A stretch of DNA of 64,000 nt from Zanthoxylum bungeanum (taxonomy: Eukaryota > Streptophyta > Magnoliopsida > Sapindales > Rutaceae): positions 1-64,000 of the forward strand of contig SKCR01034804.1 in assembly GCA_019454045.1 (NCBI GenBank). The letters run 5' to 3'. Below are positions 2,065 to 47,529 of this stretch, one piece after another (positions within the stretch are counted from its first letter, which is position 1; each line of letters begins with the position of its first letter). The notes below the pieces were generated by a model. That model had not been told where the DNA came from, searched no databases, and worked only from the letters and a program-made list of their open reading frames with translations. The position numbers were made by a program, and so were the translations under genes.

Positions 2065-2613
2065 CATTTTTTTCTTTTTTATTTCCTTCAAAAATGAAAA
2101 TTTTAATCATAATTAAATCGATTTTTTCCGGTTCGGTCCGATTTTACGATTTCAGAAACACTGGAATCGTTAATCGGACAGTTTAATTCGATTTCGGAAA
2201 CGACCGTTGAAAATGTACAATCAGCAATAGCACTGTAATTGAAGATTTAAATCATGCAGTGCAATTATTTTGGAAGTTCCTTTAAATATTAGCCATCACT
2301 GATAGCTACAGTGAGATAGGTGTAGTTTTTGTAAGTGAGATTGTAGGTAAGTGTAGCATTTTTGTTAAATATTTAGAAAACTTTTCGTGTGTGGTATAGA
2401 TTCTACGTCTTTCATAACAAAATGTTGGCCGCTAGAATTCAGATTTGGATTCATACTTAAACACAACTCAACTAAATCCAAATTCCTTGAATTCTATCTA
2501 CATTAAAAGAGTAACTAAGAAACTCAAATCCGCCATTATTACTAGCGTCCCGTTCATAAACTTTTGCTTAAAGAATAAGATTTATCTTTCATTCTCAAAC
2601 ACTAAAATCGATT
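2065..2613 (+). promoter_or_regulatory. 5' flank and probable promoter of the P450
   Basis: This is the only upstream sequence between the pseudogene and the P450 start. Its 3' half (2368-2613) is the part conserved in the broken duplicate, so leader and proximal promoter were copied together. I see no convincing TATA box at a usual distance, so no transcription start is proposed. The open frame at 2445-2741 runs through the leader in another frame and is a shadow. Confidence 0.35.
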
Positions 2614-4326
2614 ATGGCATTTGGTATGTGGTCTTTATGGCGAGATGCCAGCACAGAGGCGGCAATTATCACTTCTTTAGTTACTGTATTTGCCGTGCTC
2701 TGTTACGTTTGGAATGTCAAGAATTCAAAAAAAGCAAATGAAACATTGCCACCAGGTCCTCACGGCTTGCCTTTAGTCGGATACTTCCCGTTTCTCGGTA
2801 CTGACCTCCACAGGACATTCACAGAATTAGCTGGAGTGTACGGTCCTATCTTCAAGATCTGGCTTGGAAACAAATTATGCGTAGTGGTGACCTCACCATC
2901 ACTCGCTAAAGAAGTGGTTCGTGATCAGGATACGATATTTGCTAACCGCGACCCACCAATCGCTGGACTGATCGCCTCCTTTGGTGGAAACGACATTGCT
3001 TTGTCCTCGTATGGTCCCGAGTGGAGAAAGCTGCGCAAAATATTCGTGGGCAAGATGATGAGTAACGCAAGCCTTGATGCTTGTTATTATCTAAGAAAAC
3101 AAGAGGTAAAGAACACCATCATGGATGTTTATAACAACAAAATTGGCAAGCCAATAGACGTTGGTGAGTTGTCTATTTCAACTTTGGTGTCTGTTATTCA
3201 GAACATGCTCTGGGGTGGAACGTTTGAATTAGGAGAGAAGGGGACTAATCTTGGGGCTGAGATGAAATTAAAGACTGCAGAACTCATGGAGCTAGTTGGA
3301 ACACCGAATGTTTCTGACATTTTTCCAATACTTTCAAGGTTTGATATACAAGGAATAGAAAGGAGAGCAAAGAAGATTGCTCTATGGATTGAAAATATTT
3401 TTGATTCCGCTGTTGAACAGTATAGAAATAAGGTCTCTGTTAAAGGTGAAGCAGCGAACAATGAAGGAAGGACTGACTTATTGCAGTTACTCTTGGAGTT
3501 TAGAGACAATGAAGACAGTGCTGCTTCAATTAGCATGACCCAATTTAAGGCCTTGCTGATGGTAAATTACTGAGTCCTTCTTTGAAATACTTAAAATCGC
3601 TTTAGTTAAGTAGCACTTCCAGACAAATCGCTTAGATCTTGTGGTGAGAAATGTTTTTCAACTTTTTTTAATTAGAATTTTGTGTTTTATTTTGAACAGG
3701 ACATGTTTACAGGTGGAACCGACACCACGACTACCATGGTGGAATGGACAATGGCAGAATTGATGCAGCATCCAGAACTAATGAAGAAAGTTCAACAAGA
3801 ATTAGCTGATGTTGTGGGTATGGAAAGTTTTGTTGAAGAATTTCACTTGCCTAAATTGAAGTATTTAGATTCTGTCATTAAAGAAACAATGCGTCTGCAC
3901 CCTGCGTTACCCTTATTAGTACCACGTAGGGCAAGCCAGTCCAGCAGTATTGGTGGCTATACCATACCCAAAGACACAACAATTATGTTGAACGTTTGGG
4001 CTATACACAGGGATCCTAAACTTTGGGATAATCCCTTAGAATTTTTACCTGAGCGGTTTCTGAATGACGCTAGCAAATTTGATTACATGGGTAATAATTT
4101 TCAGTATATGCCATTTGGTTCTGGTAGAAGGATATGTGCTGGGATTGCTCTGGCAGAGAGGATGTTGATGTTTGTTCTGGCTTCATTGTTACACTCATTT
4201 GAGTGGAAATTACCGACTGGAACAGATCTAGACTTGTCTGAAAAATTTGGGATTGTTATTAGGATAAAGGACCCTTTGGTTGCTATTCCGACACCTAGAC
4301 TACCCAATTCAGAGCTCTACAAATAA
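2614..4326 (+). CDS. Cytochrome P450, CYP706-type, two exons
   Basis: The product is an ER-anchored heme-thiolate monooxygenase. Exon 1 is 2614-3561, a GT-AG intron is 3562-3699, and exon 2 is 3700-4326, giving 524 residues, a normal plant P450 length. Visible in order: N-terminal membrane anchor (about residues 15-33), proline hinge PPGP (46-49), I-helix GGTDTT (321-326), ExxR pair E378/R381, PERF (433-436) and heme loop PFGSGRRICAG with the axial cysteine at 462. The single phase-0 intron just before the I-helix is the usual A-type position. Wording around residues 130-170 (GNDIALSSYGPEWRKLRK) resembles CYP706. Known CYP706 members oxidise sesquiterpenes or other small volatiles (CYP706B1 acts on delta-cadinene), but the substrate cannot be told here. 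A flavonoid 3'-hydroxylase-like label is possible from automated tools. No frameshift or stop is seen, so it is probably functional. Confidence 0.93.
3562..3699 (+). other. Intron of the P450 gene
   Basis: The 138-bp intron starts GTAAAT directly after an ATG codon and ends TTTGAACAG before GAC. Removing it joins the two exons in frame between residues 316 and 317, restoring the I-helix that neither open frame contains alone. Confidence 0.9.
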
Positions 4327-20723: not shown

Positions 20724-21605
20724 TGTTGGACAATTATGACCCATAGCGTCACTATTTGTAAAAGACATTGTGGTTTTTGTACAAATTAACTATGTGACAA
20801 TGGAAAATATATTTTATCATTTTGTAATTAGATTACTTGTATATATAAATGATAAAAGTCCTTATGATTAGTTCCGGATTATAAGATATGAGACAATATC
20901 AATCCACAAAGATTTAATCATTAAATATCCATAGTCGTAGTACTATCGAGACTGGACATCGATAATGCAGAATAGACTAGTATTGCACTTGTGCGTGCTA
21001 TGGAAGAGTAACAGCATAGTTCTCATATATTTAAGTATTGGATACTTATGCAAGTGTGATAGGAGGTTGTGTTTACCGTTGGTGCGGAAACAGCTTTGCT
21101 CTGGATAGACCACGCGGAATCCCATTGGTAGTATGACTATGTGTCTATGGGAATCCGCTTCAGGGTAGGTGTATTTGGTCTTAACCTGAGACTTGCATCG
21201 CTAGTACTTACAACAATCAATACGCTTTGGTTTTGGTCGTCCGAGACTTTAACAGGTTTTGTGTACGCCTCTTCTGGGTTTATTGAGAATCGTAGTGTAT
21301 TGGGTGTGATGTCAAGACGGAAGTATCACTTCAGTCATATGGAGATGGTGATCACGCATGGATACAGAACCGGTTCTCTATTATGTTGCAACTATCGGGA
21401 TAATATGATAAGGTCATGATTATCCGATTATAGAGACTAGTTGATTGTGATCTGATATATGCTTCGTACGGGGCAAACACTATTCCAGCCTCAGGCCTTG
21501 CATGTGACATCAGATACTGGATCGCAATACGCAATACTACGTATAATACGTCTGTTATAGATTATATATTCCTTTAAGAATATTTCTGGAGAATTGGGTA
21601 GGCAC
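20724..21605 (+). repeat. Copia 5' LTR, left part
   Basis: Starts TGTTGGACAATTATGACC after AACAAAG. It continues after the 8-kb insertion at 29669, with GGCAC duplicated at 21601-21605 and 29664-29668. Frames at 20943-21534 are shadows within the LTR. Confidence 0.55.
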
Positions 21606-23681
21606 TGACCGGCGTAAACACACACGTATAACGCAAGCGCACGTATCGTTCAAGTAGTATAAAAATATCGATCCCACGAGGACTTAATTTCTACTGTTGT
21701 TATTAATTATTGAATCTATTTATTTACAGATATCTAATTAAATAGAGAAGAGAATGATTGTTTGATTGATTGAAAGTGGTTTTACAAAATAAATAAATAA
21801 ATAAAAAGACAAAAGAAAATACTAAGGAAAATAACAAAAGACACAAAGATCTAGGGTCGTGAATCATTCTAATATCATTTAAAAGATGAAGTGGTTATTT
21901 TATGTTTGTGTAATAAATCAGTTTACTAACCTGGAACACTAAATTATGCAAAAGCCTCTGCCGATGGTCAGACGCAAATACCCAGTTTAACCCAATTGAA
22001 CCATATGTCCATGTCAACCAAATTATCTGGATTCATTAAGTGTAAGTTCCAATTATGGCTACCCCCGCCCGACAGGTATATTCATATCCTGTAAGGAAAT
22101 CTATTAAAGGGTTATCTATCCTCAAGGAAGATCGTGGGCTATTAAGTCTAAGGCTGAAACCTAAAATCCCTATGTCTAGTTCATTTTAGATTTACCACAT
22201 CAATCTTATTGGTGATCAGACAACAAGAAGCATTAAGCTTAAGACTTAATAAGTAAACCTTTAAATTACCCAAACTATAAAACAACCATTTATAAACCGG
22301 TGATATTAGAATTCATCACAACCCCAGATAACTAACACATAACTAGGGCTAGTAACAACTTAAAAGTAAAAGACATAAAGTAAAAATACTGAAAAGTAAA
22401 AGACATAAAGTAAAAACTGAAAAGTAAAATAAAATAAAATGCTAAGGTAAAAGGAATTACTTTTACTACTACTAATTTAGATATCTCCCATAAAATAATA
22501 TATAAACCTGTGATATTATTTTACCAACCGACCAATCTGGCGGTATCCTGATTAAGTCAAATTAAGTCCAACTAGCCATATAGGCGGTAAAATTTGTCCA
22601 TAATCCAGCCATAAAGGCGGTACCAAAATAAATTTACCAACCGACCAATCTGGCGGTATCCTTGATTAGTCAGGTTTAAACCAGATTAAATTGAATTGCC
22701 AACCGACCAATATAGCGGTATCCTTTATTAATCAGTATTTTAAATAGTGAATATATTATTTTTAAGGGAGATTAATCTAAATAGTAACAGTAAAAGAATT
22801 ACCTTTCACCCTAGCTTGGGAAATTACCTCCTCATTACTGAAAAGTAAAAACTGAAAAATTAAAGAAAGAAAAGTACTGTGCGTAAAAGTAAATCGCGGA
22901 AAGTAAAAACTGAAAAGTAAAGAAAAGAAAGTGCGAAACTGAAAATTAATTACTGAAAACTAAAAATAAACAAACTAGATACAATCTTCTTATTTATTCA
23001 TTAAGAATTTCAAAGAAGAAAGTATGAATTTTACAAATGAAATGGCTTGGTATTTATAGGCAAAATTTTGCCTCCATCAAATCATCCATCAAATTCTCCA
23101 CCAAATCCATTATTAATTTCTCCACTAATTACTCCACCAAATCCATAATTGCTCCACTAATTGCTTATCTTGTTTGGTGTTGATTTGATAATTTTTATTA
23201 ATTATTAATTAATTAATATTTTGCTTTGAAAATGATTGATAATGACTTTTAATAATTACACTCCACACACTTCTGGATGGTTCATCAATTTCGGTCATGA
23301 AATCATCAGAATTTGAAAATATTTTCTCTTTCAAAGTTGTAGATCGTTGAGTCTTCTTTAATCTGGAACTTGAATCAGCTCAATCCGATATCGGAGTAAA
23401 AAGTTATGCCCAAAATACGACAGATGCGCAAAACTGGAATTTCCAAAACTGCACTTCGTCAAAAACGCCATTTCAAGTTTCCAATCTCCAAAATTAATAT
23501 ATCAAGTCCAATAATTGCCCTTATTTGATCCACATTTCATCCTAAATGATTTCATTGAGTCCCGATATTATTTTATCTGCAAAATAAAATAAAACATATC
23601 AAAACGTTCATCAAACCCGAGAAACTAAACAAAATATTAAGTAAAAGGGGCGGTAAATATTGATATATTTTCCGCTCATCA
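21606..23681 (-). repeat. 3' LTR of the LOG-carrying element
   Basis: Near-identical to 27591-29663. Inside are three to four copies of an AACCGACCAATCTGGCGG-like motif (22534, 22632, 22700 and a variant near 22586) and runs of GAAAAGTAAA units. Confidence 0.92.
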
Positions 23682-23697
23682 CACCCCCAAACCTAAC
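23682..23697 (-). other. Polypurine tract of the LOG-carrying element
   Basis: On the minus strand the sequence is GTTAGGTTTGGGGGTG directly before the TGATGAGCGG start of the 3' LTR, as expected for second-strand priming. A very similar GGTTTGGGGGT block recurs at 24899-24910 inside the element. Confidence 0.8.
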
Positions 23698-24250
23698 ATT
23701 TTGCTAGTCCTCGAGCAAAACAACAAAATAAAATTAAAATTAAACTAAGCCACTTTCGTAGGGATCACGATTGCATTTAGCATATGCGACAAGCCTTTAA
23801 ACCCCTAGGTGTCCCTAGTGGACGAGTTATATTCTCGTGAGGGCTTACAGCAACGATACCCACAAACGTTTTACAAAAGTAAAAAGATAATAAAACTAAT
23901 GCACACAAAAGAAAAAAGACAAACGAAAAGAGAATAAAGATGTTAGTGACTAATCAGGTGAAACTTCTACTCCAAGTTACTAGTTGTTTTGTTTTATTCT
24001 AAATTACTAAATAAGTAAATTCTCCGATTATTTTTACCATTCTTCATATACACAGCCAACATAATATTAAACAACTCATTTTTGCCCACAACAGTCATAA
24101 GTGCAGTTGATAAGAGAGTAATATTTTTGTCCTAAAGTTCTATCAGATTTCACACCTTTTTGTAGCAATGGAATAATTTTTCTGATTTTTCTGATTTTTT
24201 TCTTTGATTTTTCTGAATTTTGACTTTTTATTTATATACAATACCTTCCG

Positions 24251-24467
24251 TCTATGTAGCGAGTGTTGGGTCGGTGGCTCCCAAACCAATTGGCTTTAGG
24301 GCACCAGGTGTTAAGACACCCCTACAGACTTAATTACCCAGACTTAAGATATATATATATTTTTTGCAGCATCTTTGATCCATGTAACGAGCTTTGGGCC
24401 AGTGACTCCCAAACCAGTTGGCTTTAGGGCACTAGGTGTTAAGACACCCTTACAGACTTAATAACTC
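24251..24467 (-). repeat. Tandem duplication in the 3' untranslated part of the LOG-carrying element
   Basis: Two copies of about 93 bp (24251-24343 and 24377-24467) share CTCCCAAACCA, TTGGCTTTAGGGCAC, AGGTGTTAAGACACCC and ACAGACTTAAT. They lie between the LOG stop codon and the polypurine tract. No function is evident. Confidence 0.75.
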
Positions 24468-24997
24468 GGATCTCAGATTTTTTTTTTTTACTCCATTGCT
24501 TTTTGAGATGCTTCCTCCAATTAAACTAGAGCACTGAATATTACAAACTTTTCAATTTTAGCTCATGTCTGTATGTTACTATATATGTTGATAATATTTG
24601 TCAACTGAGCATATGAAGATTTATTTTAGTCCGTTTTATGGAGAATTCACAAACTAAATAATTCAAAATGAAATAAACAAAAATTAACTTGTTTCGAAAT
24701 AGGCTTGAGATACGTCTTAGGAATGGAAACTCCTTACTCGGCTATCTCTTACCAATTTCACTTTTTTAGTCAAATTAAAAACACAAAAACACAAAATATT
24801 TTTGTAATTTTTTGAAATTTTTTCATTTTTTTGTATTTTTCGAAAAAATTTAGACTAAAAATAAAAACACAATACAAACAAGTACTATTAACTATATCTC
24901 ACCCCCAAACCTAAATGAGACATTGTCCCCAATGTCTTAAACAGTGAAAGAAGAGTTTAGAAAATAATACCTGGTTAGCTGAAATTCTACAGGAAAA

Positions 24998-25651
24998 TTA
25001 AAGGTTAAGATCCAGATTTATTCGTCGCTTCTTACCACGATCGTCCTCAGACCATTTTATTTTTGAAATGATAGGGTCAACTTTCGGTTCATAGGCTATA
25101 AGTTGGTCTATTAGATCCGGAGCAGTTCTGGCAGTAAAGAGGAGTTCTTTCATAGGTTTCGACACGAACCCATTTCTCCGAGCATCATCAAGAAACACAC
25201 AAAGAAAATCATAAAATCCATCAACGTTGAGTAGTCCAAGCGGTTTCTGGTGTATGTTCAGGTTCGCCCAAGATAGAACTATAAAAATTTCCTCCAATGT
25301 GCCCAAGCCACCTGGCAAAGCGATAAAAGCATCAGCTCGATTAATCATTTCTACCAGTCGTTCAGACATACTTGGCACGATCAGTTCCTCTCCGTTTGAT
25401 GAACCAATAAGATTTTCCTCTGCCAAAGGTTTTGGGATGATTCCCAAAACATGACTGCCTCCTTCCTGTACAGCCTTTGAAACGATCCCCATAAGTCCAA
25501 GATTTCCTCCGCCATATATTAAGTGCATATTCCTTGCAGCTAAGACTCGACCCAATTCCTGTGCTGCTTCTATGTATTGTGGCTTAGTACCAACACTACT
25601 ACCGCAAAACACGCAGATGTTTTCAACTCGTTTTCTTGAAGTGGCTTCCAT
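24998..25651 (-). CDS. LOG-family phosphoribohydrolase ORF carried by a retrotransposon
   Basis: 217 residues, the usual size for plant LOG proteins, which release active free-base cytokinin from its riboside 5'-monophosphate in the cytosol and nucleus. Motifs: CVFCGSS (13-19), YGGGNLGLMG (46-55), the family signature PGGLGTLEE (113-121), GLLNVDGFY (139-147). The paired catalytic residues fit Arg98 (in SERLVEM, where most LOGs read RKAEM) and Glu121. The start follows AAAT and gives a standard N-terminus. The ORF is intact and has no introns, while host LOG genes usually have several, so a copy made through RNA is likely. It lies in the sense orientation of the element, 0.5 kb after the gag-like ORF, and could be read from the 5' LTR. 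Odd: lower similarity at the substrate loop and a C-terminal LDLNL. Activity and expression are unproven; another member of the lysine-decarboxylase-like family is possible. Confidence 0.88.
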   Translation of the reverse strand: MEATSRKRVENICVFCGSSVGTKPQYIEAAQELGRVLAARNMHLIYGGGNLGLMGIVSKAVQEGGSHVLGIIPKPLAEENLIGSSNGEELIVPSMSERLVEMINRADAFIALPGGLGTLEEIFIVLSWANLNIHQKPLGLLNVDGFYDFLCVFLDDARRNGFVSKPMKELLFTARTAPDLIDQLIAYEPKVDPIISKIKWSEDDRGKKRRINLDLNL

Positions 25652-25669
25652 ATTTTATGTATTTCTTTT

Positions 25670-26116
25670 TCAAATCAGGATGCCTTCAAAAGTGTAATGA
25701 CGGGCTGAATTTATAGTACCTGAAAAAGGGTGAGTAATAATAGCACTAATATCTTCCAGAGGACGATTGTTAGTTAAACAACAAAAGAAATCGTGAAAGG
25801 TCAAAAAGTCTGGATCCTGTCTACGAAAATAAAGATAATTACAATAGAAAAGCGAATCAAAGCAATAATTAATGTAACAGAATTGTGTACGCAATACGCC
25901 ACTCGTTTGGTATAAATTCATTAGGATGCGTCTCAAGAATTAATTCTTTACTCAGCCATTGCTAATGAATTGTTTCTCTACTTTGTGATTGCCAAACACA
26001 TTCCTTCTGTCTTAAAATGCTCCGTTTATGCTTTTCCCTACAAAAATAACACACAAAATTAAAAACTCTACCACATGGATACACAAAATATAAAAACAAA
26101 AATTACAACAAATTGC
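25670..26116 (-). other. Spacer between LOG ORF and gag-like ORF
   Basis: An 88-residue open frame at 25670-25936 has no recognisable features. The stretch may be leader for LOG translation or leftover from the captured transcript. Nothing else is supported. Confidence 0.3.
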
Positions 26117-26140
26117 ATGGGTTGCCTCCCTGCTAGCGCT
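26117..26140 (-). other. Conserved GGGAGGCAACCC block between the two ORFs
   Basis: On the minus strand this reads AGCGCTAGCAGGGAGGCAAC and continues CCATG. From memory, a GCGCT...GGGAGGCAACCCA block is a recurring feature after the pol region of Athila-type gypsy elements and ahead of their env-like ORF. Its role is unknown. Here it separates the gag remnant from the LOG ORF. Confidence 0.45.
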
Positions 26141-26181
26141 AAATTTTTCGTCTTCAGCCAGACGTGACTGAAATCTATCTG

Positions 26182-27462
26182 TCAAGGAGGTTTCAGTGTT
26201 GTTTTGGATGTCCGATTAAAGACAATCCCATGTGTGTTGCTTTTGAAGGGTCTCTTCCAACGGTACAGTGGCAAAAAATATTTTGTCTCATTCAGTGCTC
26301 GTGCCACCTTTTTTCTCCTTGTTACTCCAGTGGTTCCTGCAAAGAAAGAAAGAAAATCAGGAGGTCTCGTATGATGCTTGACTTGGAATGGAAATTCCAT
26401 TCTGTCAAGCTTCTGGTTGATATCTTTAATTTGTACTCCCCAAAATAGCGATGTTTCTCCTGAATGCTCTGGATCTTTATTAAGGTCAGACATTTGCTCC
26501 TCCATTTGCTCTGTTTCTTGCTCCACATTTTCTTCACAGATGTATTTTAAAATTTCTATATTCAGCTCTTCATCTGTCATCTGTGAAATACATGCTTCAA
26601 AATTGTCAACCTGAGGATGCAAAGATGTTTCTGACTTTAGGTTTTCATCCTCTGATACGACTGGAATGGATGGTTCAGATAGATCTTCTTCAAACATCAA
26701 GGTAAAGCATGCTCCAAGATCTTCATTTTGAGGATTGAAAGTTTGATCCTCCGTTGTTGGTGCAGTTGGTACAAATAGATCAGCTTCATCCTCGTCAAAA
26801 TCTGAATAATAAAAGTCAAATTGAGACTTTGCCGGTTCGGGCTCCTGAACTGATACCTCTGGTTGTTGATACTGCTCAGCCTCCTCCTCTGTTGAAGTGT
26901 CATTGTGAAATGATTGGTACTCGAAGGCTTCATCTATGTCATCTGAAACTGGTTCTTGAGGTATGTAGTTCTGGTTTTCTGTGAATTGTCTCATTTGATT
27001 TGTCATCCTCTGAATGAATTCTGATTGTCTCTGAATACTTTCAAATTGTTTCTGGCTTGTTTCAAGCATTTCATCCAACTTTTGTTTCTCGAACATATCT
27101 TTGAGCATGTTTAACAACTGATCTTCCTCTGATGGTTCTGGTTGTTGATGAAAATCGCATATGGATGGTGGATAAGATGGAAAATGTGATGGTTTTTCAT
27201 ATTTTGAATGATTCTGAAAATTCTGCCACTCTGAACGGTATATACATTGATCGCTCGGGTGGTTACCATCACATATTACACATCTTCCCATTTCGTTCTG
27301 TTGAGCATATGTAGAATTGTTTGGTTCTGGCATCCAGTGATAATTGTTGGGCTGGACAACAGGCCTCAGAAAACCGGACTGTTGCTCCCAGATGTGGGGT
27401 GTATCTTCTTGTAAAGCTCGTAATCTCTCAATCTCCCAGTAGTGTTCCATTTTTTTTTTCAA
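26182..27462 (-). CDS. Gag-like ORF with zinc knuckle, no capsid or pol
   Basis: 426 residues starting about 130 bp inside the 5' LTR and primer site. A zinc-knuckle-like CVICDGNHPSDQC (C-x2-C-x3-H-x4-C) lies at about 60-72. A Gln/Glu-rich segment with coiled-coil character (about 115-165), including QKQFESIQRQSEFIQR, is followed by a long acidic region (about 170-330), and the C-terminus is basic. No capsid domain is recognisable before the knuckle, so the usual Gag N-terminus seems to be missing, and no protease or polymerase follows. I infer a Gag-derived nucleocapsid-like protein of a non-autonomous element. A fully novel protein cannot be excluded. Overlapping frames on both strands at 26164-27314 are shadows. 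Confidence 0.65.
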   Translation of the reverse strand: MKKKMEHYWEIERLRALQEDTPHIWEQQSGFLRPVVQPNNYHWMPEPNNSTYAQQNEMGRCVICDGNHPSDQCIYRSEWQNFQNHSKYEKPSHFPSYPPSICDFHQQPEPSEEDQLLNMLKDMFEKQKLDEMLETSQKQFESIQRQSEFIQRMTNQMRQFTENQNYIPQEPVSDDIDEAFEYQSFHNDTSTEEEAEQYQQPEVSVQEPEPAKSQFDFYYSDFDEDEADLFVPTAPTTEDQTFNPQNEDLGACFTLMFEEDLSEPSIPVVSEDENLKSETSLHPQVDNFEACISQMTDEELNIEILKYICEENVEQETEQMEEQMSDLNKDPEHSGETSLFWGVQIKDINQKLDRMEFPFQVKHHTRPPDFLSFFAGTTGVTRRKKVARALNETKYFLPLYRWKRPFKSNTHGIVFNRTSKTTLKPP

Positions 27463-27566
27463 ACACCTGAAAACAAAAGAAAGAAATAAAAATTACAGAT
27501 AAAAATAAAGAAAATTAGATACAAGTAAATTGGATAGCATCAAAATTAATAACTCAAGAATATAAA

Positions 27567-27584
27567 TCCCCGGCAACGGCGCCA
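27567..27584 (-). other. Primer-binding site for tRNA-Asp
   Basis: On the plus strand TCCCCGGCAACGGCGCCA equals the 3' end of plant tRNA-Asp(GUC) including CCA. On the minus strand it is a perfect 18-nt primer site, six bases after the end of the 5' LTR. Confidence 0.85.
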
Positions 27585-27590
27585 AAAACT

Positions 27591-29663
27591 TGACCGGCGT
27601 AAACACACACGTATAACGCAAGCGCACGTATCGTTCAAGTAGTATAAAAATATCGATCACACGAGGACTTAATTTCTACTGTTGTTATTAATTATTGAAT
27701 CTATTTATTTACAGATATCTAATTAAATAGAGAAGAGAATGATTGTTTGATTGATTGAAAGTGGTTTTACAAAATAAATAAATAAATAAAAAGACAAAAG
27801 AAAATACTAAGGAAAATAACAAAAGACACAAAGATCTAGGGTCGTGAATCATTCTAATATCATTTAAAAGATGAAGTGGTTATTTTATGTTTGTGTAATA
27901 AATCAGTTTACTAACCTGGAACACTAAATTATGCAAAAGCCTCTGTCGATGGTCAGACGCAAATACCCAGTTTAACCCAATTGAACCATATGTCCATGTC
28001 AACCAAATTATCTGGATTCATTAAGTGTAAGTTCCAATTATGGCTACCCCCGCCCGACAGGTATATTCATATCCTGTAAGGAAATCTATTAAAGGGTTAT
28101 CTATCCTCAAGGAAGATCGTGGGCTATTAAGTCTAAGGCTGAAACCTAAAATCCCTATGTCTAGTTCATTTTAGATTTACCACATCAATCTTATTGGTGA
28201 TCAGACAACAAGAAGCATTAAGCTTAAGACTTAATAAGTAAACCTTTAATTACCCAAACTATAAAACAACCATTTATAAACCGGTGATATTAGAATTCAT
28301 CACAACCCCAGATAACTAACACATAACTAGGGCTAGTAACAACTTAAAAGTAAAAGACATAAAGTAAAAATACTGAAAAGTAAAAGACATAAAGTAAAAC
28401 TGAAAAGTAAAATAAAATAAAATGCTAAGGTAAAAGGAATTACTTTTACTACTACTAATTTAGATATCTCCCATAAAATAATATATAAACCTGTGATATT
28501 ATTTTACCAACCGACCAATCTGGCGGTATCCTGATTAAGTCAAATTAAGTCCAACTAGCCATATAGGCGGTAAAATTTGTCCATAATCCAGCCATAAAGG
28601 CGGTACCAAAATAAATTTACCAACCGACCAATCTGGCGGTATCCTTGATTAGTCAGGTTTAAACCAGATTAATTGAATTGCCAACCGACCAATATAGCGG
28701 TATCCTTTATTAATCAGTATTTTAAATAGTGAATATATTATTTTTAAGGGAGATTAATCTAAATAGTAACAGTAAAAGAATTACCTTTCACCCTAGCTTG
28801 GGAAATTACCTCCTCATTACTGAAAAGTAAAAACTGAAAAATTAAAGAAAGAAAAGTACTGTGCGTAAAAGTAAATCGCGGAAAGTAAAAACTGAAAAGT
28901 AAAGAAAAGAAAGTGCGAAACTGAAAATTAATTACTGAAAACTAAAAATAAACAAACTAGATACAATCTTCTTATTTATTCATTAAGAATTTCAAAGAAG
29001 AAAGTATGAATTTTACAAATGAAATGGCTTGGTATTTATAGGCAAAATTTTGCCTCCATCAAATCATCCATCAAATTCTCCACCAAATCCATTATTAATT
29101 TCTCCACTAATTACTCCACCAAATCCATAATTGCTCCACTAATTGCTTATCTTGTTTGGTGTTGATTTGATAATTTTTATTAATTATTAATTAATTAATA
29201 TTTTGCTTTGAAAATGATTGATAATGACTTTTAATAATTACACTCCACACACTTCTGGATGGTTCATCAATTTCGGTCATGAAATCATCAGAATTTGAAA
29301 ATATTTTCTCTTTCAAAGTTGTAGATCGTTGAGTCTTCTTTAATCTGGAACTTGAATCAGCTCAATCCGATATCGGAGTAAAAAGTTATGCCCAAAATAC
29401 GACAGATGCGCAAAACTGGAATTTCCAAAACTGCACTTCGTCAAAAACGCCCTTTCAAGTTTCCAATCTCCAAAATTAATATATCAAGTCCAATAATTGC
29501 CCTTATTTGATCCACATTTCATCCTAAATGATTTCATTGAGTCCCGATATTATTTTATCTGCAAAATAAAATAAAACATATCAAAACGTTCATCAAACCC
29601 GAGAAACTAAACAAAATATTAAGTAAAAGGGGCGGTAAATATTGATATATTTTCCGCTCATCA
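27591..29663 (-). repeat. 5' LTR of the LOG-carrying element
   Basis: Near-identical partner of 21606-23681. A TATA-like box lies inside it on the minus strand. This LTR would drive the transcript that includes both ORFs. Confidence 0.92.
29033..29040 (-). promoter_or_regulatory. TATA-like box in the 5' LTR of the LOG-carrying element
   Basis: The minus strand reads CCTATAAATACCAAGCC. A duplicate lies at 23051-23058 in the 3' LTR. Position within the LTR and orientation fit a promoter for the element's own transcript. This is motif evidence only. Confidence 0.5.
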
Positions 29664-30710
29664 GGCACGACGCTTTGCTAGAAGCCAACCATGTCTCGTA
29701 AATTGGTAAAAACATGGTACGAAGTACGCACGTGTTCGGATAGTCCGACGACCGGATTTACCGCCAACATATCCAGAGATCTCATGGGTCGCTTCCCGAA
29801 GATTCACCGATGACGTATGACTCGAACATAATAATCTAGGATTAATTGCGGAAAGATTTTATCTGGGATAAAATTCTATTTAGAAGAGAGAGAACGATTA
29901 ATTTGGAATTAATCGATTAAAATAATATATTTGATATATTAAATGAAATTAGATTTCGACGCGAAATTAAAATTGGATTTTAATTCGGGCGAACGAATTA
30001 ATTTAGAATTAATTCACGAGCGACTTTAATGGTAATTTTGCTAGGCATAATTATTTAATTAAATTTGTTTTAATTAAGTTGCAATGGAAAATTCGTTAAT
30101 TCGGAATTAAAGAACCCGAGTCTGGGATGTGTTTGCGGGCCCACTCCGATTTTGAATCAAGTGGGGCACACATCAAGTCACATCAATTGTCACTTCAGTG
30201 ATGGAAGTCATGTCAACTTTTTGGTGATAGACATCTAGTCACTTTAGATGATGGGAGTAGTTGGGAGTAATAAATGCTATTTTCCCTCCAAATTTTGGTT
30301 AAGCTTTTTGGAAAACAAATACCAAAGATTTGAGAAAAACTTTTGTAATTGTTTTTTAGAAAAACAAAACACAAAAATATCAAAAGCTCTCTCCTCTCCC
30401 TTTTATCTCTCTTGACCGAAACACACTAACAAGAACAAGGAAATTTGTTGCAAATTTTCAAAGTGCTAGCACACATCAAGAATCATACTAAGGTGTTACG
30501 GAAACTCTCCCATTGAGCTTGGAATCTCAAATCACTCAAAGCTTGGAGCTCAACTTCATCAAAGAAAGCTTGGACACTTTCAAGGAAGGAAAAGTTTTGT
30601 TCTACACACATCATCTCTACTGATCAAAGTGAGTATATTTCCGCTATACTTCTTTTACGTATTCACATTATTTCATGCTTTAAATGTTCTTGGGATGATC
30701 TTAGAGACCA
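29664..30710 (+). repeat. Copia 5' LTR, right part
   Basis: Continues the LTR begun at 20724, giving about 1.9 kb without the insertion. It ends in AGAGACCA four bases before a tRNA-iMet-like primer site. A possible splice donor AAA|GTGAGT lies near 30627. Confidence 0.5.
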
Positions 30711-34804: not shown

Positions 34805-37586
34805 TGTAGGCACTGCATTTTTGCATATAAGACCCTATGATGAGTCTCATTTGGAGGCACTACCTTTTAAGTCACGGAAGTCACGGGAAACAGACGTCGG
34901 AATGAGAAATTCAGAATAGACATGTCATCAGATTCATTTCACAAGTTCACTGTTTTCGTTCGTGCTGCGTTCGTTACCACGTTCGAACGTCAAATAGATT
35001 GCGGGCGTTCGTGTAGCGTTCGAATAGGTGTTCGAACGGTGTCGGTATTTCTGGTTTTGCTGCTAGCCTCACACCCAAGCCCATTTAGCCCACTAAAGCC
35101 CATAAAACACTAATTAAATCATATAGCAAATTAAATAAAATATTAATTAAATCATATACCAAATTCAATAAAACATTAAATAAAATCATGTCTAATTAAA
35201 ATCAATCAACCAATATCATTCCTAATTAAAAATATATTATTCCTAACTTAAAATATTGTATGCCTAATCAACACAAATTAAATACTAACTTCCTAATCAA
35301 GCTTAAATTTTTCCCCTATCTTGTATTTACCTTACATGAAACTAAATCATATCTCCATTTTATGAGAGGATCTCTTCCTTGTCAAGCAAGGGCTCACCTT
35401 TTCCCTTTGTCTATAAAAGCAAGCCAAAACCAAAGCCATCTAGGTCTCCAACTTACACGCATTTGACAAGCAAGAAAGATCTTTCACATACACAAACAAA
35501 ACAAGCAAAAAGAACTTCTTTCTTCTCCCTTCTAGGACCAAAAATCACAGCCACCAAACACCTCATACCACCGAAAATACACCTCTAAAAACAGTGAGCA
35601 GAAACCGCATAAACAACAGCCACATACACGCATAAAGCAGCAGCCATACACACATAACATCACCACCAAAAATACACCCCCAAACAGCAGCCCAAACACC
35701 CAAAAAATAGTCCATTATTTACCGAAAACCAGTAAGCCAATATTGTGACCAGAATATAGTAGCAATAGCAGCGAATCAGAGTCAAAACAGTAGCTCGAGC
35801 AGTGGAACAGCGAGGAAAGGCGTGAACCTGTGAACCGGAGGAGTTACGGAGCATCCCCCTTTTCCGACGACCGTGCACCGTACTTCCGAGAGTCGACATA
35901 AAATGTTAGACCTGAGGGCACCTTTCTCATTAGTTTATATTCGTCTTTTAATTGTTTATTGAATTCTATTCGTATGAGAGTCATTTGTGAATGCATGTTG
36001 TGGCTGTGAATAAAATGGAAAATGTGTCGCCTCTTGTGGTATATAGGATGGAAACCCGGACATAAATTTCATAGCTGATTCCGAATGGATGGTAGTATGA
36101 TCTGTACTCGGGATACAACTCCACGTACCACTTGAGTAAACATCGCATATTTCGTTTTCTGTTGTTTTGATGTGTTTATTATTCGTTATTTAATTTCTGC
36201 ATGTTATTCGTTCACATAATGATGTGATCGAGCACATGGTCTTAGTAAGTCAGATTAAAGGCCCCCTATTTTGTGGGGTTAAAACCCTTTACCACGATGA
36301 TTTGCCACGCCGGTTGATGTATATTCGGTTGAATGTAAGATGTGTTCAATCAGGTATACGAAGTTAGATATTGTTTCTTTTATTTCTTATATGCATTGGT
36401 GATAAAGCGCATGGGCTTAGTAAATGCGATTAAAGGTCCTATATTTTGAGAGGTTAAAATCCTTTACCACGATGCTTTGCCGCGCCGGATAATGTACATT
36501 CGATTGGATGTGAGATATGTTCAATCGGATACACGAAGTCCGATATCGTTGTCTTTACTTCTTTATATATGTATTGTGTTGTTTGCGCATGGGCTTAGTA
36601 ACTGCGATTAAAGGTCCTCTATTTTGAGAGGTTAAAATCATTCACCACGATGCTTTGCCGCGCTGGATAGTGTATGTTCGATTGGATGCGAGATGAGTTC
36701 AATCGGATACGTGAGGTCCTATATTGTGGATTTGTTTGTTTACGTATGTGTTGTATGCATCAGGTCTGGTTCCGTTCAAACGCGTTCTCGAACGCCACAC
36801 GAACGCGAACCTTCTGTTTACCATTCAAACGCGTTCTCGAACGCTACGCGAACACGCACGTAGTTTCTTAGTTTAATCATGCATCAGGTCTGGTTCTGTT
36901 CGAACGCGTTCTCGAACGCTATACGAATGCGAACCTTCTGTTTACCGTTCGAACGCGTTCTCGAACGCTGCACGAACGCGCACCCACCCCATTGAGTCTT
37001 TTTCATCACATCACGACATGTCTATTTTAGCATATAGTTGTCTTTTTTTTTTACCTTATGCATTTGTAATACTGCTTTAGGTATCTATTTCCGTCATGCG
37101 CTTAATTGTCTTTCCTTAATATGCTTGCTTGTATGAATGTTATTTGTTTGCGCTTCTGTGTCTACCAATGTGAAATTGTATGCTTTCCGTATGTCAATTT
37201 ATCTGTATGCAAATTGAGACATAGATTACATGAAAATAGGCTGTATGCACATTTGGATATGTGTTACATGTAAATTTAGATGAACTTGTTGATATATGCA
37301 TGCAAACTTAGAGGTAGATTATCCTTGGAAATATGTTGCTTAGGCTTGGTTAGATTATTGCACAAATCATTTTATTACAAGTGGCATAAGTAAGGGACCA
37401 TTCTGAACCCAACGGTTTGAGGTCTTCCCTTGCGAGGGGTGAGTGCGGCCTTAAATCTCATTTTCCCGGTTCACACCGGGTGGCGACTCCATTATTATCC
37501 GGTTTAGTCCCCCGCGGGCTACTCTGTACTCCCAACTAGGCCGCGAGCCTAGAACAGCATGCGTCGCCCATTTTATGTGTCCCACA
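34805..37586 (+). repeat. 5' LTR of the Tat element
   Basis: 2782 bp. It has a TATAAAA box at 35412-35418, a tandem triplication (starts near 36237, 36407 and 36585) with GCGCATGGGCTTAGTAA and TTTACCACGATGCTTTGCC, and repeated CGAACGCGTTCTCGAACGC palindromic units at 36775-36985. Open frames in it are not genes. Confidence 0.85.
35412..35418 (+). promoter_or_regulatory. TATA box in the Tat 5' LTR
   Basis: TATAAAA in CTATAAAAGCAAGCC; the same box lies at 43629-43635 in the 3' LTR. Its place in the LTR fits the retrotransposon promoter. Confidence 0.55.
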
Positions 37587-40849: not shown

Positions 40850-40852
40850 CCG

Positions 40853-42176
40853 TTGATACTGACAACAGCCAGAAGACCTGTTTATGAGATAGAGAGAATT
40901 CTGGAAAAAGAGGTCGATGACGGTAAACTGTGGTATCATGACATTCAGAGGTATCTGGAACATGGGGAACTCCCAGAGGGAGCTGGCAGAAAAGACGAAA
41001 TATTCATTCAGAGGTTAGCTTCCCAGTATGTGATTTTGAAAGGGGAACTGTACAAGAGGCAAGCAAACGGTATTCAGTTGAAATGTGTGAGAAGAGAAGA
41101 GGCTCAGCAGGTAATGGGAGAAGTACACGCCGGAGTATGTGGTCCGCACATGAACGGGTTGAATCTGTCCCGTAAGATAGTGAGACAAGGTTTCTACTGG
41201 TCGACCATGGAGACGGATTGTGCGAAGATGGTAAAGCACTGTTATGATTGTCAAGCACATGGTAATTTGAATCATTTGCCGCACACAGAGTTGCATGGGC
41301 TGTTAGAGCCGTCGCCTTTCTCAGCATGGGGAATTGATATGATTGGAGAGATTCGACCGAATGTATCGAATAGGCATCGCTTCATAGTAGTGGCAGTAGA
41401 CTACTTCTCGAAATGGGTGGAAGCCGAGTCATTCTGCAACGTTACAGCGAAACAGATGGCAAAGTTTATAGCTCGGAATCTTATTTGTCGGTATGGTATG
41501 CCGCACCATGTAGTGACAGACAACAAAGTTCAGTTTCAAGGAAAGACAAAGGCAATGCTACAGAAATATGGGATAGGCCATCACAAGTCATCACCGTATA
41601 GGCCGCAGGCAAATGGGGCAGTTGAGGCAGCCAACAAGACTATAAAGATGATTTTAGCCAAGATGACAGAAAACTGCAGAGATTGGGCCGACAAAATGCC
41701 ATATGCTTTGTGGGGGTACATAACATCAGTAAGAACAGCAACAGGGGCCACGCCTTACTCTTTGGTCTATGGAATGGAAGCAGTATTGCAAGTGGAAGTG
41801 GAAATACAGTCTATGAGGGTATTAACAGAGGCAGAGTTACCGGAACAAGAATGGGCCGCACAAAGGTTTGATCAGTTAGCATTGTTGGATGAGAAGAGAA
41901 CAAAGGCTTTGTATCATATGCAGTTGTATCAGAAGAGACTAGCCCGAGCATTCAACAAGAAAGTACGTCCCACCAAGATCAGAAAAGGGTGATTTGGTAC
42001 TTAAGCAGTCGAGGCCATCGACGACAGATCCGAGAGGAAAGTTCAGACCTAACTGGGAAGGACCCTACATAGTGCAGAAAGTAATGGGAAATGGGGCAGT
42101 GCAACTGTCAGACTTGGAGGGTAATGAGTTCACTGAGCCGATCAACGTGGACATATTGAAGCAATATTTTCCCTGA
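40853..42176 (+). pseudogene. Integrase of the Tat element
   Basis: Zinc-binding part (HAGVCGPHMNG, CYDCQAHGN), then catalytic core with WGIDMIGEI (first Asp), VVTDNKVQFQG (second Asp) and PQANGAVEAANK (Glu). The open frame 40853-41992 ends at a TGA; the C-terminal domain (GKFRPNWEGPYIVQKV, INVDILKQYFP) continues in another frame to 42176. The remaining frame is largely intact for about 380 residues. Confidence 0.9.
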
Positions 42177-43022: not shown

Positions 43023-45182
43023 TGTAGGCAGTGCATTTTTGCATATAAGTCCCTATGATGAGTCTCATTTGGAGGCACTACCTTTTAAGTCACGGAAGTC
43101 ACGGGAAACGGACGTCGGAATGGGAAATTCAGAATAGACATGTCATCAGATTCATTTCACAAGTTCACTGTTTTCATTCGTGTTGCGTTCGTTACCACGT
43201 TCGAACGTCAAAGGATTGCGGGCGTTCGTGTAGCGTTCGAATAGGTGTTCGAACGGTGCCGGTATTTCTGGTTTTGCTGCTAGCCTCACACCCAAGCCCA
43301 TTTAGCCCACTAAAGCCCATAAAACACTAATTAAATCATATACCAAATTAAATAAAATATTAATTAAATCATATACCAAATTAAATAAAACATTAAATAA
43401 AATCATGCCTAATTAAAATCAATCAACCAATATTATTCCTAATTAAAAATATATTATTCCTAACTTAAAATATTGTATGCCTAATCAACACAAATTAAAT
43501 ACTAACTTCCTAATCAAGCCTAAATTTTCCCCCTATCTTGTATTTACCTTACATGAAACTAAATCATATCTCCATTTTATGAGAAGATCTCTTCCTTGCC
43601 AAGCAAGGACTCACCTTTTCCTTTTGTCTATAAAAGCAAGCCAAAACCAAAGCCATCTAGCTCTCCAACTTACACGCATTTGACAAGCAAGAAAGCTCTC
43701 TCACATACACAAACAAAACAAGCAAAAAGAACTTATTTTCTTCTCACTCCTAGGACCGAAAATCACAGCCACCAAACACCTCATACCACCGAAAATACAC
43801 CTCTAAAAATAGTGAGCAGAAACCGCATAAACAACAGCCACATACACGCATAAAGCAGCAGCCATACACACATAACATCACCACCGAAAATACACCCCCA
43901 AACAGCAGCCCAAACACCCAAAAAACAGTCCCTTATTTACCGAAAACCAGTAAGCCAATATTGTGACCAGAATACAGTAGCAATAGCAGCGAATCGGAGT
44001 CAAATCAGTAGCTCGAGCAGTGGAAAAGCGAGGAAAGGAAAGGCGTGAACCTGTGAACCAGAGGAGTTACGGAGCATCCCCCTTTTTCGACGACCGTGCA
44101 CCGTACTTCCGAGAGTCGACATAAAAGGTTAGACCTGAGGGCACTTTCTCATTAGTTTATATTCGTCTTTTAATTGTTTATTGAATTCTATTCGCATGAG
44201 AGTAATTTGTGAATGCATGTTGTGGCTGTGAATAAAATGGAAAATGTGTCGCCTCTTGTGGTATATAGGATGGAAACCCGGACATAAATTTCATAGCCGA
44301 TTCCGAATGGACGGTACTATGATCTGCACTAGGGATACAACTCCACGTACCACTTGAGTAAACGGCGCATATTTCATTTTCTGTTGTTTTGATGTGTTTA
44401 TTATTCGTTATTTAATTTCTGAATGTTATTCGTTCGCATAATGATGTGATCGAGCGCATGGGCTTAGTAAGTCGGATTAAAGGTCCCCTATTTTGAGGGG
44501 TTAAAACCCTTTACCACGATGCTTTGCCGCTCCGGTTGATGTATATTCGGTTGAATGTAAGATGTGTTCAATCGGGTATACGAAGTAGTTAGATATGTTT
44601 CTTTTATTTCTTATATGCATTGGTGATAAAGCGCATGGGCTTAGTAAGTGCGATTAAAGGTCCTCTATTTTGAGAGGTTAAAATCCTTTACCACGATGTT
44701 TTGCCGCGCCGGATAATGTACATTCGATTGGATGTGAGATATGTTCAATCGGATACACGAAGTCCGATATCGTTGTCTTTACTTCTTTATATATGTATTG
44801 TGTTGTTTGCGCATGGGCTTAGTAACTGCGATTAAGGTCCTCTATTTTGAGAGGTTAAAATCATTTACCACGATGCTTTGCCGCGCTGGATAGTGTATGT
44901 TCGATTGGATGTGAGATGAGTTCAATCGGATACGTGAGGTCTTACATTGTGGATTTGTTTGTTATTGTAAGTGTTGTATGCATCAGGTCTGGTTCCGTTC
45001 TAACGCGTTCTCGAACGCTATACGAACGCGAACCTTCTGTTTTCCGATTCGAACGCGTTCTCGAACGCAGCATGAAGGCGCACCCAATGCACTGAGTCCT
45101 TTTTATCACATCACGACATGTCTATTTTACATATAGTTGTCTCTTTTTTTACCTTATGCATTTGTAGTACCGCTTTAGGTAT
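43023..45182 (+). repeat. 3' LTR of the Tat element, left part
   Basis: Matches 34805-37060 with scattered differences and one fewer CGAACGCG unit. Ends in GGTAT at 45178-45182, the target duplication of the next insertion; the LTR resumes at 53724. Confidence 0.85.
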
Positions 45183-47345
45183 TGTAGGACACAGAAATCG
45201 GCGACGCTGTTCTAGGCTCGCGGCCTAGTTGGGAGTACGAAATAACATGAAGTCGCCACCCGGTGTGAACCGGGACAAAGATTTAAGGCCGCACTCACCC
45301 CTCGCAAGGGAAGACCTCGAACCGTTGGGTTCGGAATGGTCCCTTACTTATGTCACTTGTAATGTTGTGATTTGTGCAATAAACTAACCGAATCTACTCA
45401 ACATGTATGCTCAAAGGTAACTTACACCTAATTTCACATGCATAATAATAACAATGAAAACCTATATCTAAGTTCGCATACTTCAAAGTAAGTTGTCATA
45501 ACGGAAAACACGCAATAACATACAATCATCACACAAGCATGCTCAATTATCTAATGCGGAAAATAAATAAGAATCTAAGCATAAATATAAATTAAATCCC
45601 TAATGTGAAAACAACATAATCATGCATAAAGAAAGAAATTTCTATCGACTAAATCATGTTTAAGATAAATAACATGCTAACAACATAATCATGCTCGAAT
45701 ACAATGTTGATGAATGAAATATGTGTATCTCTCAAGTGGTACGTGGCATTGTATCCCGAGTACAAACTGCACTACCGTCCATTCGGATTCGGCTACTGAA
45801 TTTACGTCCGGGTTTCCATCCGATATACCACAAAAGAGAACACGCATTCCGTTCATCCGGAATTCACATCATACCTCAACAAACGACTCTCATGCGATAA
45901 TATATTAAAATAAATAAAAGAAATGAAGGATAATAAGTAAAAAGGGTGTCCTCAGGTCTAACCTCTTTTGTCGTCTCTCGAAAGCGCGTTACACGGTCGT
46001 CGGAAGGGAGAATGCTCTACAACTTTTCTGGTTCACTAATCCAACATTTTTTCCTCGTTGTTTCGCTGTCTGGGCTGCTGTTTTCACTCTGTTTCGCTTA
46101 TATTTTGGTTGTATTTTCTGTCACTGTTTTTGGTAATTTAGGCTACTGTTTTGGGAGGTTTAGGGGGCGGTTTTTTGGTCACTGTTTTAAGGGTTAAACT
46201 TGCGGCTGAACTGGGCTGGTTTTTGGGCGTTTATGTGTGCAATTTGGAGGTTGTATATGCGGCTGGCATGGGCGTTTTGTGTTGGGGCAGTGGATGTGTT
46301 GTTAAGTGCTAATGACGCGAGTTGGGTTGGGGAGCAGGTGGCGTGTGGTGAGGCAATGAAGTGGGCGAGCTGTGGCTAATGGTGTGGGGATCAGCTAAAT
46401 GTGTGAAGGCTATGTGGAAGCTTGCGTGAGGGTTAGTGAGTGCAGGGACGTGTTGAGCAAGGGCAATTGTGGGCTGAGTGTGAGCTGGTACGTGGCTTTT
46501 GATAGAGGTAGCCACGTTTGTGAGTGAGGTTTGAAGGGTAAGTGGCTTATGCGTGAGCGGTTTGGTGGCTAAGCGATGTGGGATCGTGTGTGGTGTTGTT
46601 GATTATGTTGAAGGGTTAGTGAGTGGAGGTTGCAATGTGTGAATGAGGGGCTGGTGCGTGAGTGCTAGGCGTGGTCTTCTCGTAGGTCAGGTGTTGCCGA
46701 GAGTGAGGCAATGTGGGAGAGGCTGTGCGTTGATTTTGAGAAGGCAGGGGCTGATGCGTGAGAGAAGAGAGATGGTGAAGCTCCGGGTTATTTTCTTTGT
46801 GTTTTCGTGAGAATGAGCGAGGGTTCAATGTGTTGGTGAATGGTTCTTTTTATAGGAAAATGGATTGGGCTTTCCTTATTTGAGAATGAGAATAATTTGT
46901 TCATTAAAGGAAATATCTTTTAAATTAGTATGTGATAAGGAAATCTGTTAATTAGGGAAATGATTTGATTTAATTTGATTTCTTCTTCTTTAATTAGGGA
47001 AGATGATTTAATTTAATTAGGAATGTGATTTATTTAAATTAGGAAGGTAATTTATTTTAATTTAATTGGATTTAATTTGATTTAATTTGTGACATGTATT
47101 TTAAATGTTTTTAATTATTTGGATTGACTTTAATGGGCGTGTGGTTTTGGTTTTAGGCTAAGGATGTGTTTTAAAACGGAGGTCAACAAGCGAACCCGCA
47201 GCTACTCCAGCGAATTAAATCCAACAATGCGTCAATTATTGACTCTTCCTTCCGACGTCTGTTTCCCGCGGCTTCCACAATAAAGAGGTAGTGTCTCCAT
47301 ACGAGACTCATCATGGGACTTATATGCAAAAATGAAGTGCCTACA
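45183..47345 (-). repeat. 3' LTR of the non-coding Tat-family element
   Basis: 2163 bp, starting TGTAGGACACAG and ending GTGCCTACA on the plus strand. On the minus strand a TATAAAAAG box lies near 46848. The partner is 51550-53723. Confidence 0.85.
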
Positions 47346-47529
47346 GTCTCCCCACTTTGATGGGACTTGTGTAATGTGTAACAGTGACAATCCTATCAAA
47401 GCTATGCAATGCATTTTTACTTACCTGGCTCACCAGCTGCCACTTGACTTGTCTGTTGCTTCAAACTGAATTGATCTGGTGTGAAGTGCTTCGACCCCAA
47501 GTTTCATCCCTGCAAGATGCTACGATCTC

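Follow-up and report, generated by a model that had tools for sequence, protein, structure and literature searches.

A YgdH/LOG domain has been described in LTR-retrotransposon consensuses of Citrus and Populus by Alvarado-Marchena et al. (2022, PMC9289625), who credit the YgdH/LOG report to Steinbauerova et al. 2011 and who, in the passages concerned, place all non-canonical domains passing their filter in Gypsy elements. The element presented here likewise carries a LOG-family domain in a plant LTR element, and Populus is also found among the LOG relatives of this study; the passages on the Citrus and Populus elements, however, do not deal with gene order, selection, substrate pocket, tail, a zinc-motif neighbour or the present host plant. 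In our literature search, PMC9289625 was the only paper returned for YgdH together with retrotransposon, and no paper joining LOG and Athila was found. The original prediction of a new type of link between a retroelement and host development through a mobile LOG gene therefore retains only part of its novelty, YgdH/LOG in Citrus and poplar LTR elements being already in print. The same source describes a Ty3/gypsy element of an orchid that encodes an RNA demethylase of AlkB type, so that there, too, a plant Gypsy element has a host-type enzyme as a fixed accessory; that enzyme is a different one, and its activity was shown in vitro, whereas the activity of the LOG discussed here is predicted.

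As presented by Neumann et al. (2019, PMC6317226), the Athila lineage shares with our elements the order gag-PR-RT-RH-INT, a 5-bp target-site duplication, extra ORFs, long non-coding parts and an RH and INT too close together to leave space for a second RNase H, but here a LOG and a carlavirus-NABP-like ORF take the place of the Athila ORF-1 domain. Carlavirus cysteine-rich or nucleic-acid-binding proteins (NABPs), as covered in PMC12172455, share PF01623/PF05515 similarity with a zinc-motif ORF of the fuller relatives, not with the element in the window. Plant type-I LOGs (Arabidopsis LOG3, 2a33; LOG8, 1ydh) have the fold, the PGGxGTxxE motif and the catalytic Arg and Glu in common with the element LOG, which differs in its sequence (about 50% identity), three pocket changes, a C-terminal basic-LxLxL tail and the absence of introns. 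The usual view of a plant retroelement is that of silenced cargo consisting of gag and pol. In the present family, a gene for a hormone-pathway enzyme has been held by element-level selection, multiplied, and altered at its substrate pocket and tail, and a plant-virus-like protein is now linked to an Athila-type element. Manipulation of host nucleotide or hormone signalling, or of transcription, by a retrotransposon becomes a testable question.

The window, the whole stretch of 64,000 nucleotides that was analysed, contains a young LTR retrotransposon on the minus strand at 21606-29663, with the following features:

21601..21605, no strand, target-site duplication GGCAC, left copy, flanking the element
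21606..23681, minus strand, 3' LTR, 2076 bp
23682..23694, minus strand, polypurine tract, adjoining the 3' LTR
24232..24487, no strand, tandem repeats, 2 x 128 bp with 77% identity, separating LOG from the 3' LTR
24998..25651, minus strand, LOG-family ORF, 217 aa, intronless, with the PGGxGTxxE motif and catalytic Arg98 and Glu121
25001..25036, minus strand, C-terminal tail of LOG, GKKRRINLDLNL, a basic cluster and then LxLxL (EAR-like), predicted to be disordered
26182..27450, minus strand, gag-like ORF, 422 aa, a remnant without capsid domain
27567..27584, minus strand, primer binding site, presumably for tRNA-Asp
27591..29663, minus strand, 5' LTR, 2073 bp; the sense of the element is minus
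29664..29668, no strand, target-site duplication GGCAC, right copy, flanking the element

The matching LTRs of about 2.07 kb and the 5-bp duplication, GGCAC on both sides, are as predicted. In the alignment of the two LTRs, we find three substitutions over 2073 aligned bases and three gap columns, from which two assumed substitution rates date the insertion to roughly 56-103 thousand years ago. The gag-like ORF is present as claimed, but it gives no Pfam gag match and, of the genuine Gag of the family, it resembles part of the C-terminal region alone (E=5e-5), so that it is a capsid-less gag remnant. No pol was found in the element, and an Rfam search of it gave no match. It is a non-autonomous, shortened derivative of larger LOG-bearing elements.

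The LOG gene is multi-copy, as had been proposed. In the plant's own 3.96-Gb genome, all 150 scored places carry a full-length LOG without in-frame stop at 95-100% identity; these places come from 70,556 first-look candidates, most of them unscored, so that the number of copies is at least 150. A second sample was chosen blind to LOG, on a non-coding stretch, and comprises 39 copies including the window, one of which (L070) has no LOG match. Among the remaining 38, LOG as assembled is fully intact in only five; 30 have one or more indels whose length is not a multiple of three, and eight have an in-frame stop. Many of these indels are single bases, which may be assembly errors. The reading frame of LOG is also disrupted at all six loci picked for a perfect zinc-motif ORF, and among the copies examined none has every ORF intact.

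The fuller relatives show the order 5'LTR-gag-RT-RH-INT-zinc-motif ORF-LOG. On one contig (C45892), LTR, gag (PF03732), RT (PF00078), RNase H (PF17917), INT (PF00665), zinc-motif ORF and LOG follow one another; the pol order RT-RNase H-INT, for which the window element has no counterpart, is read there from two pieces, the RNase H frame ending at position 6029 of L081 and L076 continuing straight into the INT frame. At all six zinc-motif loci, INT lies upstream and LOG-coding sequence downstream of the zinc-motif ORF. Pfam finds a single RNase H region and no additional RNase H (aRH), although this leaves some room for an aRH that went unrecognised; aRH is the mark of Tat in the lineage description of PMC6317226. 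The Athila ORF-1 domain PF03078 is absent from the Pfam matches of two gag ORFs, which is not a defining miss, since the same source gives it for 16% of Athila elements and its absence is usual in the lineage. Judged by its layout, the LOG-bearing family is probably an Athila-type Ty3/gypsy family. The INT motif of these elements presumably resembles that of Athila as well. In the genome-contig scan, one locus (L130) came from a supposed bacterial MAG, whose content looks like plant contamination; it has INT and the zinc-motif ORF, but LOG is absent from the following ~1 kb.

The zinc-motif ORF, missing from the window element and known from fuller copies, passes the Pfam gathering scores of two carlavirus NABP families, PF01623 (26.0 versus 20.9 bits) and PF05515 (25.0 versus 23). 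At E<=1e-3, the two are found in 38 and 39 of 43 family members, respectively, the similarity being barely above cut-off and spanning about 30-90 residues around a basic stretch and the cysteine motif. Its omega (dN/dS) is 0.221 in eight copies (seven of 27 loci besides L005), its structure model is poor (pLDDT 62.7, pTM 0.28), and a search of viral contigs with its alignment returned no relatives.

The predicted complete, intronless LOG-family gene of 217 aa is indeed there. Its product matches PF03641 (E=9.8e-36), contains PGGxGTxxE and both catalytic residues, and has Arabidopsis At2g37210 (2a33) as its best PDB match in sequence and fold. With models that serve bacterial annotation, it scores 167.7 against a cut-off of 96.35 for the TIGR00730 subfamily, and 119 bits against 300 for the NCBIfam equivalog cytokinin riboside 5'-monophosphate phosphoribohydrolase. 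In the protein alignment, the catalytic Glu is retained in 98 of 99 relatives and the catalytic Arg in 88, being missing in 11. The prenyl pocket has been described as Met96, His97, Lys100, Glu125 and Trp129 (CgLOG numbering; PMC4979012, in the part concerned). At these positions, the window LOG has M, S, L, I and W: Met96 and Trp129 are kept, whereas His97, Lys100 and Glu125 are replaced by Ser, Leu and Ile. The three replaced residues are present in 22, 7 and 7 of the 99 relatives, respectively, versus all of 114 host LOGs (proteins of 200-260 aa, out of 120 listed each). As three of the five described residues differ, we are unsure whether this putative enzyme activates cytokinin and is "hormone-activating", as first proposed. 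The protein ends in LDLNL (residues 213-217), which conforms to the EAR motif as defined in PMC9956375 (LxLxL or DLNxxP, in the passage concerned). Of 104 relatives, 75 have such a basic-LxLxL tail, as against none of 109 host LOGs, counting motif-bearing proteins out of 120 listed each. In the LOG-blind sample, the tail is no more constrained than the core (omega 0.395, from few changes, versus 0.206).

The element LOG is under purifying selection, as anticipated. On internal branches of the LOG-blind sample, there are 34 synonymous, 13 non-synonymous and no nonsense changes, giving an omega of 0.116 (p=1.5e-12 against neutrality); on terminal branches, omega is 0.299 (not 1), with 10 nonsense changes. 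The gag-like ORF is weakly constrained. In 14 LOG-chosen copies (13 loci kept out of 29, with 700 nt or more of the gag-like ORF), omega is 0.082 for LOG versus 0.656 for gag-like, at similar dS (0.142 and 0.150). The gap shrinks without LOG-based choice, to 0.217 versus 0.482 in the same 10 LOG-blind copies (a gag-like piece of 300 nt; nine of 11 loci kept). This better preservation of LOG than of the neighbouring reading frame suggests that the element itself uses LOG, perhaps not for making hormone.

A recent capture of an ordinary processed host LOG transcript, which would now be spreading a cytokinin-activating enzyme, had been proposed at the outset. The contrast on which it drew is real: the same-genome host LOG gene is split into exons (L092, L093) and the element LOG is intronless, with its catalytic motif retained and a plant LOG as best match. 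Identity to LOG3 is, however, merely about 50%, the pocket is changed, and LOG is common to pol-bearing and differently deleted relatives. Moreover, in an unrooted tree with one bacterial row and host sampling of LOG1/3 and LOG8 types, a single branch (98/93) separates 98 retro-type LOGs (97 of 120 relatives, 205-250 aa, and the window) from 22 plant LOG1/3/8 rows (20 chosen from 120 host-search proteins and two PDB segments). We reject a recent capture on this branch and hold it to be very unlikely; the element LOG belongs to an old family, whose place in larger elements is behind pol and ahead of the 3' LTR.

What has been observed, from the structure and number of the copies to the order of their genes, the selection on LOG, its conserved catalytic residues, its changed pocket and its extra tail, leads us to an explanation that we consider quite probable, namely a young non-autonomous Athila-type derivative with a standing, selected LOG-like accessory gene. 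This gene would sit between pol and the 3' LTR throughout the family, a place taken by an env-like gene in some Athila elements; in fuller copies it would follow immediately on the small ORF of apparent carlavirus-NABP type. Selection would maintain it on elements giving rise to new copies, with decay after insertion. LOG would be translated from LTR-driven RNA and may act as a nucleoside-5'-monophosphate phosphoribohydrolase on cytokinin ribotides or another nucleotide; its basic tail could draw it into the nucleus, and LxLxL may bind TOPLESS-type corepressors, possibly making the host cell friendlier to the element (dividing, or less well silenced). That LOG instead hitch-hikes with no gain to the element would agree with the 33 of 38 LOG-blind copies broken as assembled, the terminal nonsense changes, and several LOG-bearing derivatives without gag capsid or pol, but we reject a neutral passenger on the internal-branch omega, and catalytic residues are retained even where relatives, from several plant families, are down to 50-60% identity; we regard it as highly improbable. 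A true cytokinin-ribotide hydrolase, maintained since raised host-cell cytokinin favours transposition or inheritance, is conceivable if on balance unlikely. The LOG fold, motif, catalytic pair and the Met96 and Trp129 positions of the window copy speak for it, and the neighbouring ORF recalls carlavirus-type CRPs, described as inducing hyperplasia in the relevant part of PMC12172455; the Ser, Leu and Ile in place of the LOG3-type residues, and the rarity of the latter among relatives, speak against it.

Rather doubtful, though compatible with the findings, is a host-manipulation module of two genes in an old Athila-type lineage of eudicots, in which a carlavirus-like, silencing-suppressor-like NABP would act beside a re-specialised nuclear LOG; this LOG would have given up cytokinin production for the making or breakdown of another nucleotide signal, with a TOPLESS-recruiting LxLxL tail; if real, it would be a retrotransposon counterpart of pathogen effectors. 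A scan of viral contigs with the single LOG protein gave no relatives, and a scan with the LOG alignment gave 28 loci at 26-45% identity.

The minus-strand element at window 21606-29663 is a complete copy of an LTR retrotransposon, with a 5-bp target-site duplication (GGCAC) and 3 substitutions per 2073 aligned bases between its LTRs. Assuming 7e-9 and 1.3e-8 substitutions per site per year, this divergence corresponds to an age of about 103 and 56 thousand years, respectively. The LTRs enclose two ORFs:

26182-27450, minus strand: gag-like ORF of 422 aa, lacking a capsid domain
24998-25651, minus strand: 217-aa ORF of the LOG family of cytokinin-activation enzymes

The LTR retrotransposon with an intact LOG ORF of the original prediction is therefore present. 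Having no pol, this element cannot move on its own; it also lacks a 182-aa zinc-motif ORF that sits between integrase and LOG in fuller relatives. One such relative, on contig C45892 of the same genome, displays the order LTR, gag, RT, RNase H, integrase, 182-aa ORF, LOG, with frame breaks as assembled. No second RNase H domain was found in this relative, and since that domain separates Tat from Athila (accessible text of PMC6317226), the family appears to fit Athila better than Tat. At two LOG loci, a 5′ LTR 86-92% identical to that of the window element is followed by a Gag ORF (matching PF03732 in L031, the one scanned) and then by protease or integrase fragments, which are leftovers of internal pol deletions. 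Three loci (L022, L023, L024) have LTR-like sequence directly upstream of the LOG region, with the gag-like region missing, and represent a still shorter derivative type.

The LOG protein search of the genome assembly (3,956,113,105 bases, 51,709 contigs) yielded 70,556 first-look candidates, of which the best 150 were scored; all 150 were full-length, 95-100% identical and free of in-frame stops, so that many further copies of the internal LOG exist, ranking by protein score biasing this list toward intact ones. A LOG-blind search used the non-coding stretch beside LOG (window 24600-24990) as its query, and 40 of 3,586 candidates were scored. LOG lay beside this stretch in 38 of the 39 non-window copies. 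As assembled, it was fully intact in 5 of these 38, had an in-frame stop in 8 and carried one or more indels with a length that is no multiple of three in 30; single-base lengths, for which assembly error and decay are both possible sources, were common among the indels.

Comparison of Ka/Ks between copies revealed purifying selection on LOG. For 30 LOG-ranked copies (435 pairs), summed dN over summed dS was 0.080. In 14 copies with both LOG and the gag-like ORF, dN/dS was 0.082 for LOG versus 0.656 for the gag-like ORF at similar dS, a contrast inflated by the choice of copies through LOG; the gag-like ORF is frameshifted in 9 of the 13 non-window copies. The LOG-blind sample (38 copies plus the window) gave 0.210 over all pairs. 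On internal branches of its tree, dN/dS was 0.116 (34 synonymous, 13 non-synonymous and no nonsense changes; p=1.5e-12 against neutrality), versus 0.299 with 10 nonsense changes on terminal branches; a first tree that included LOG-ranked copies had given 0.107 and 0.305. Ten LOG-blind copies retaining 300 nt of the gag-like ORF gave 0.217 for LOG versus 0.482 for that piece. We read these values as selection on the source elements that is relaxed once a copy has inserted. LOG is a real, selected accessory gene of this Athila-type retroelement family.

The encoded protein is a LOG by sequence and predicted fold. Its best PDB relative is At2g37210 (sequence search, E=1.8e-61; Foldseek with the structure model, pLDDT 85.1, E=1.0e-19 and 52% identity). 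With C. glutamicum LOG as the reference for active-site residues (as described in the accessible part of PMC4979012), the catalytic Glu is retained in 98 of 99 relatives and the catalytic Arg in 88, versus 22 for His97 and 7 each for Lys100 and Glu125; these last three are each retained in 114/114 host LOGs, and are Ser, Leu and Ile in the window LOG. The window LOG matches the wider TIGR00730 model and scores 119 bits against a cut-off of 300 for the cytokinin-specific NCBIfam model, which was made for bacterial annotation. A C-terminal tail with a basic cluster followed by LxLxL occurs in 75 of 104 relatives versus none of 109 host-type LOGs. This tail is predicted to be disordered; within the own genome it is under no stronger constraint than the core. 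LxLxL is among the EAR consensuses (excerpted text of PMC9956375), and TOPLESS-binding pathogen effectors are named in the literature.

In a tree of 121 proteins, a branch (98/93) separates 98 retro-type LOGs, including members from Populus, Xanthoceras, Paulownia, Diplodiscus and Reevesia, from 22 host LOGs (LOG1/3 and LOG8 types) and one bacterial LOG. By this placement the family is old or fast-evolving, and does not look like a recent derivative of any host LOG sampled; the proposed recent capture of a processed host transcript is thus not supported. The LOG8-like gene of the host itself has an exon-intron structure (L092, L093), as had been expected of host LOGs. The database relatives of the element LOG probably also reside in retroelements, judging from their copy number, their intronless frames and the occurrence of the neighbour ORF in Populus and Xanthoceras as well.

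With 26.0 bits for Carla_C4 and 25.0 bits for Viral_NABP, the 182-aa neighbour ORF scored above the respective Pfam cut-offs of 20.9 and 23, and among 43 family members these domains were found in 38 and 39, respectively. Of 428 candidates in a homology search, 389 reached E<=1e-3; a precomputed Carla_C4 domain is present in the 120 listed, and Xanthoceras, Populus, Orobanche, Acer and Rhamnella are named among the matches listed. Carlavirus CRPs are described as silencing suppressors, and that of chrysanthemum virus B as a transcription factor that induces hyperplasia (accessible text of PMC12172455). The ORF resembles these proteins in sequence, and may share descent or function with them. 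Its dN/dS was 0.221 (8 copies), and at least one in-frame stop occurred in 13 of the best 150 matches scored from 46,237 candidates in the own genome. In each of the first six loci read (L075-L080), the 182-aa ORF is preceded by integrase sequence and followed by LOG-coding sequence whose frame is disrupted by indels; both ORFs are open in L005, L011 and L020. A contig of 3.3 kb, deposited under a Candidatus Nomurabacteria MAG but apparently plant contamination, carries a plant retroelement with integrase and the carlavirus-NABP-like ORF. No LOG follows within the roughly 1 kb after this ORF, and LOG is therefore no obligate companion of it.

A YgdH/LOG domain, as in the window element, has already been reported in LTR-element consensuses from two Citrus species and P. 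trichocarpa in the accessible portion of PMC9289625, which credits Steinbauerova et al. 2011. The novelty originally claimed for a mobile LOG is thus only partial. For gene order, selection, pocket changes, tail and carlavirus-like neighbour, our literature search, covering few subscription papers, found no account: the element LOG is of a known kind, with features unreported in the literature searched.

Elsewhere, the window holds the following:

2572-4326, plus strand: ORFs of 333 and 216 aa, by eye resembling a pair of exons from a host cytochrome P450 gene
6364-9585 and 12050-15272: LTR-like repeat pair, 98.98% identical, with internal tandem repeats
34805-36844 and 43023-45068: LTR-like pair (95.8%), with a Ty3-type integrase-like ORF between them at 40850-41992
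45183-47346 and 51550-53724: LTR-like pair (95.5%)
54645-56250, plus strand: polyprotein fragments in two frames, Ty1/copia-like by eye
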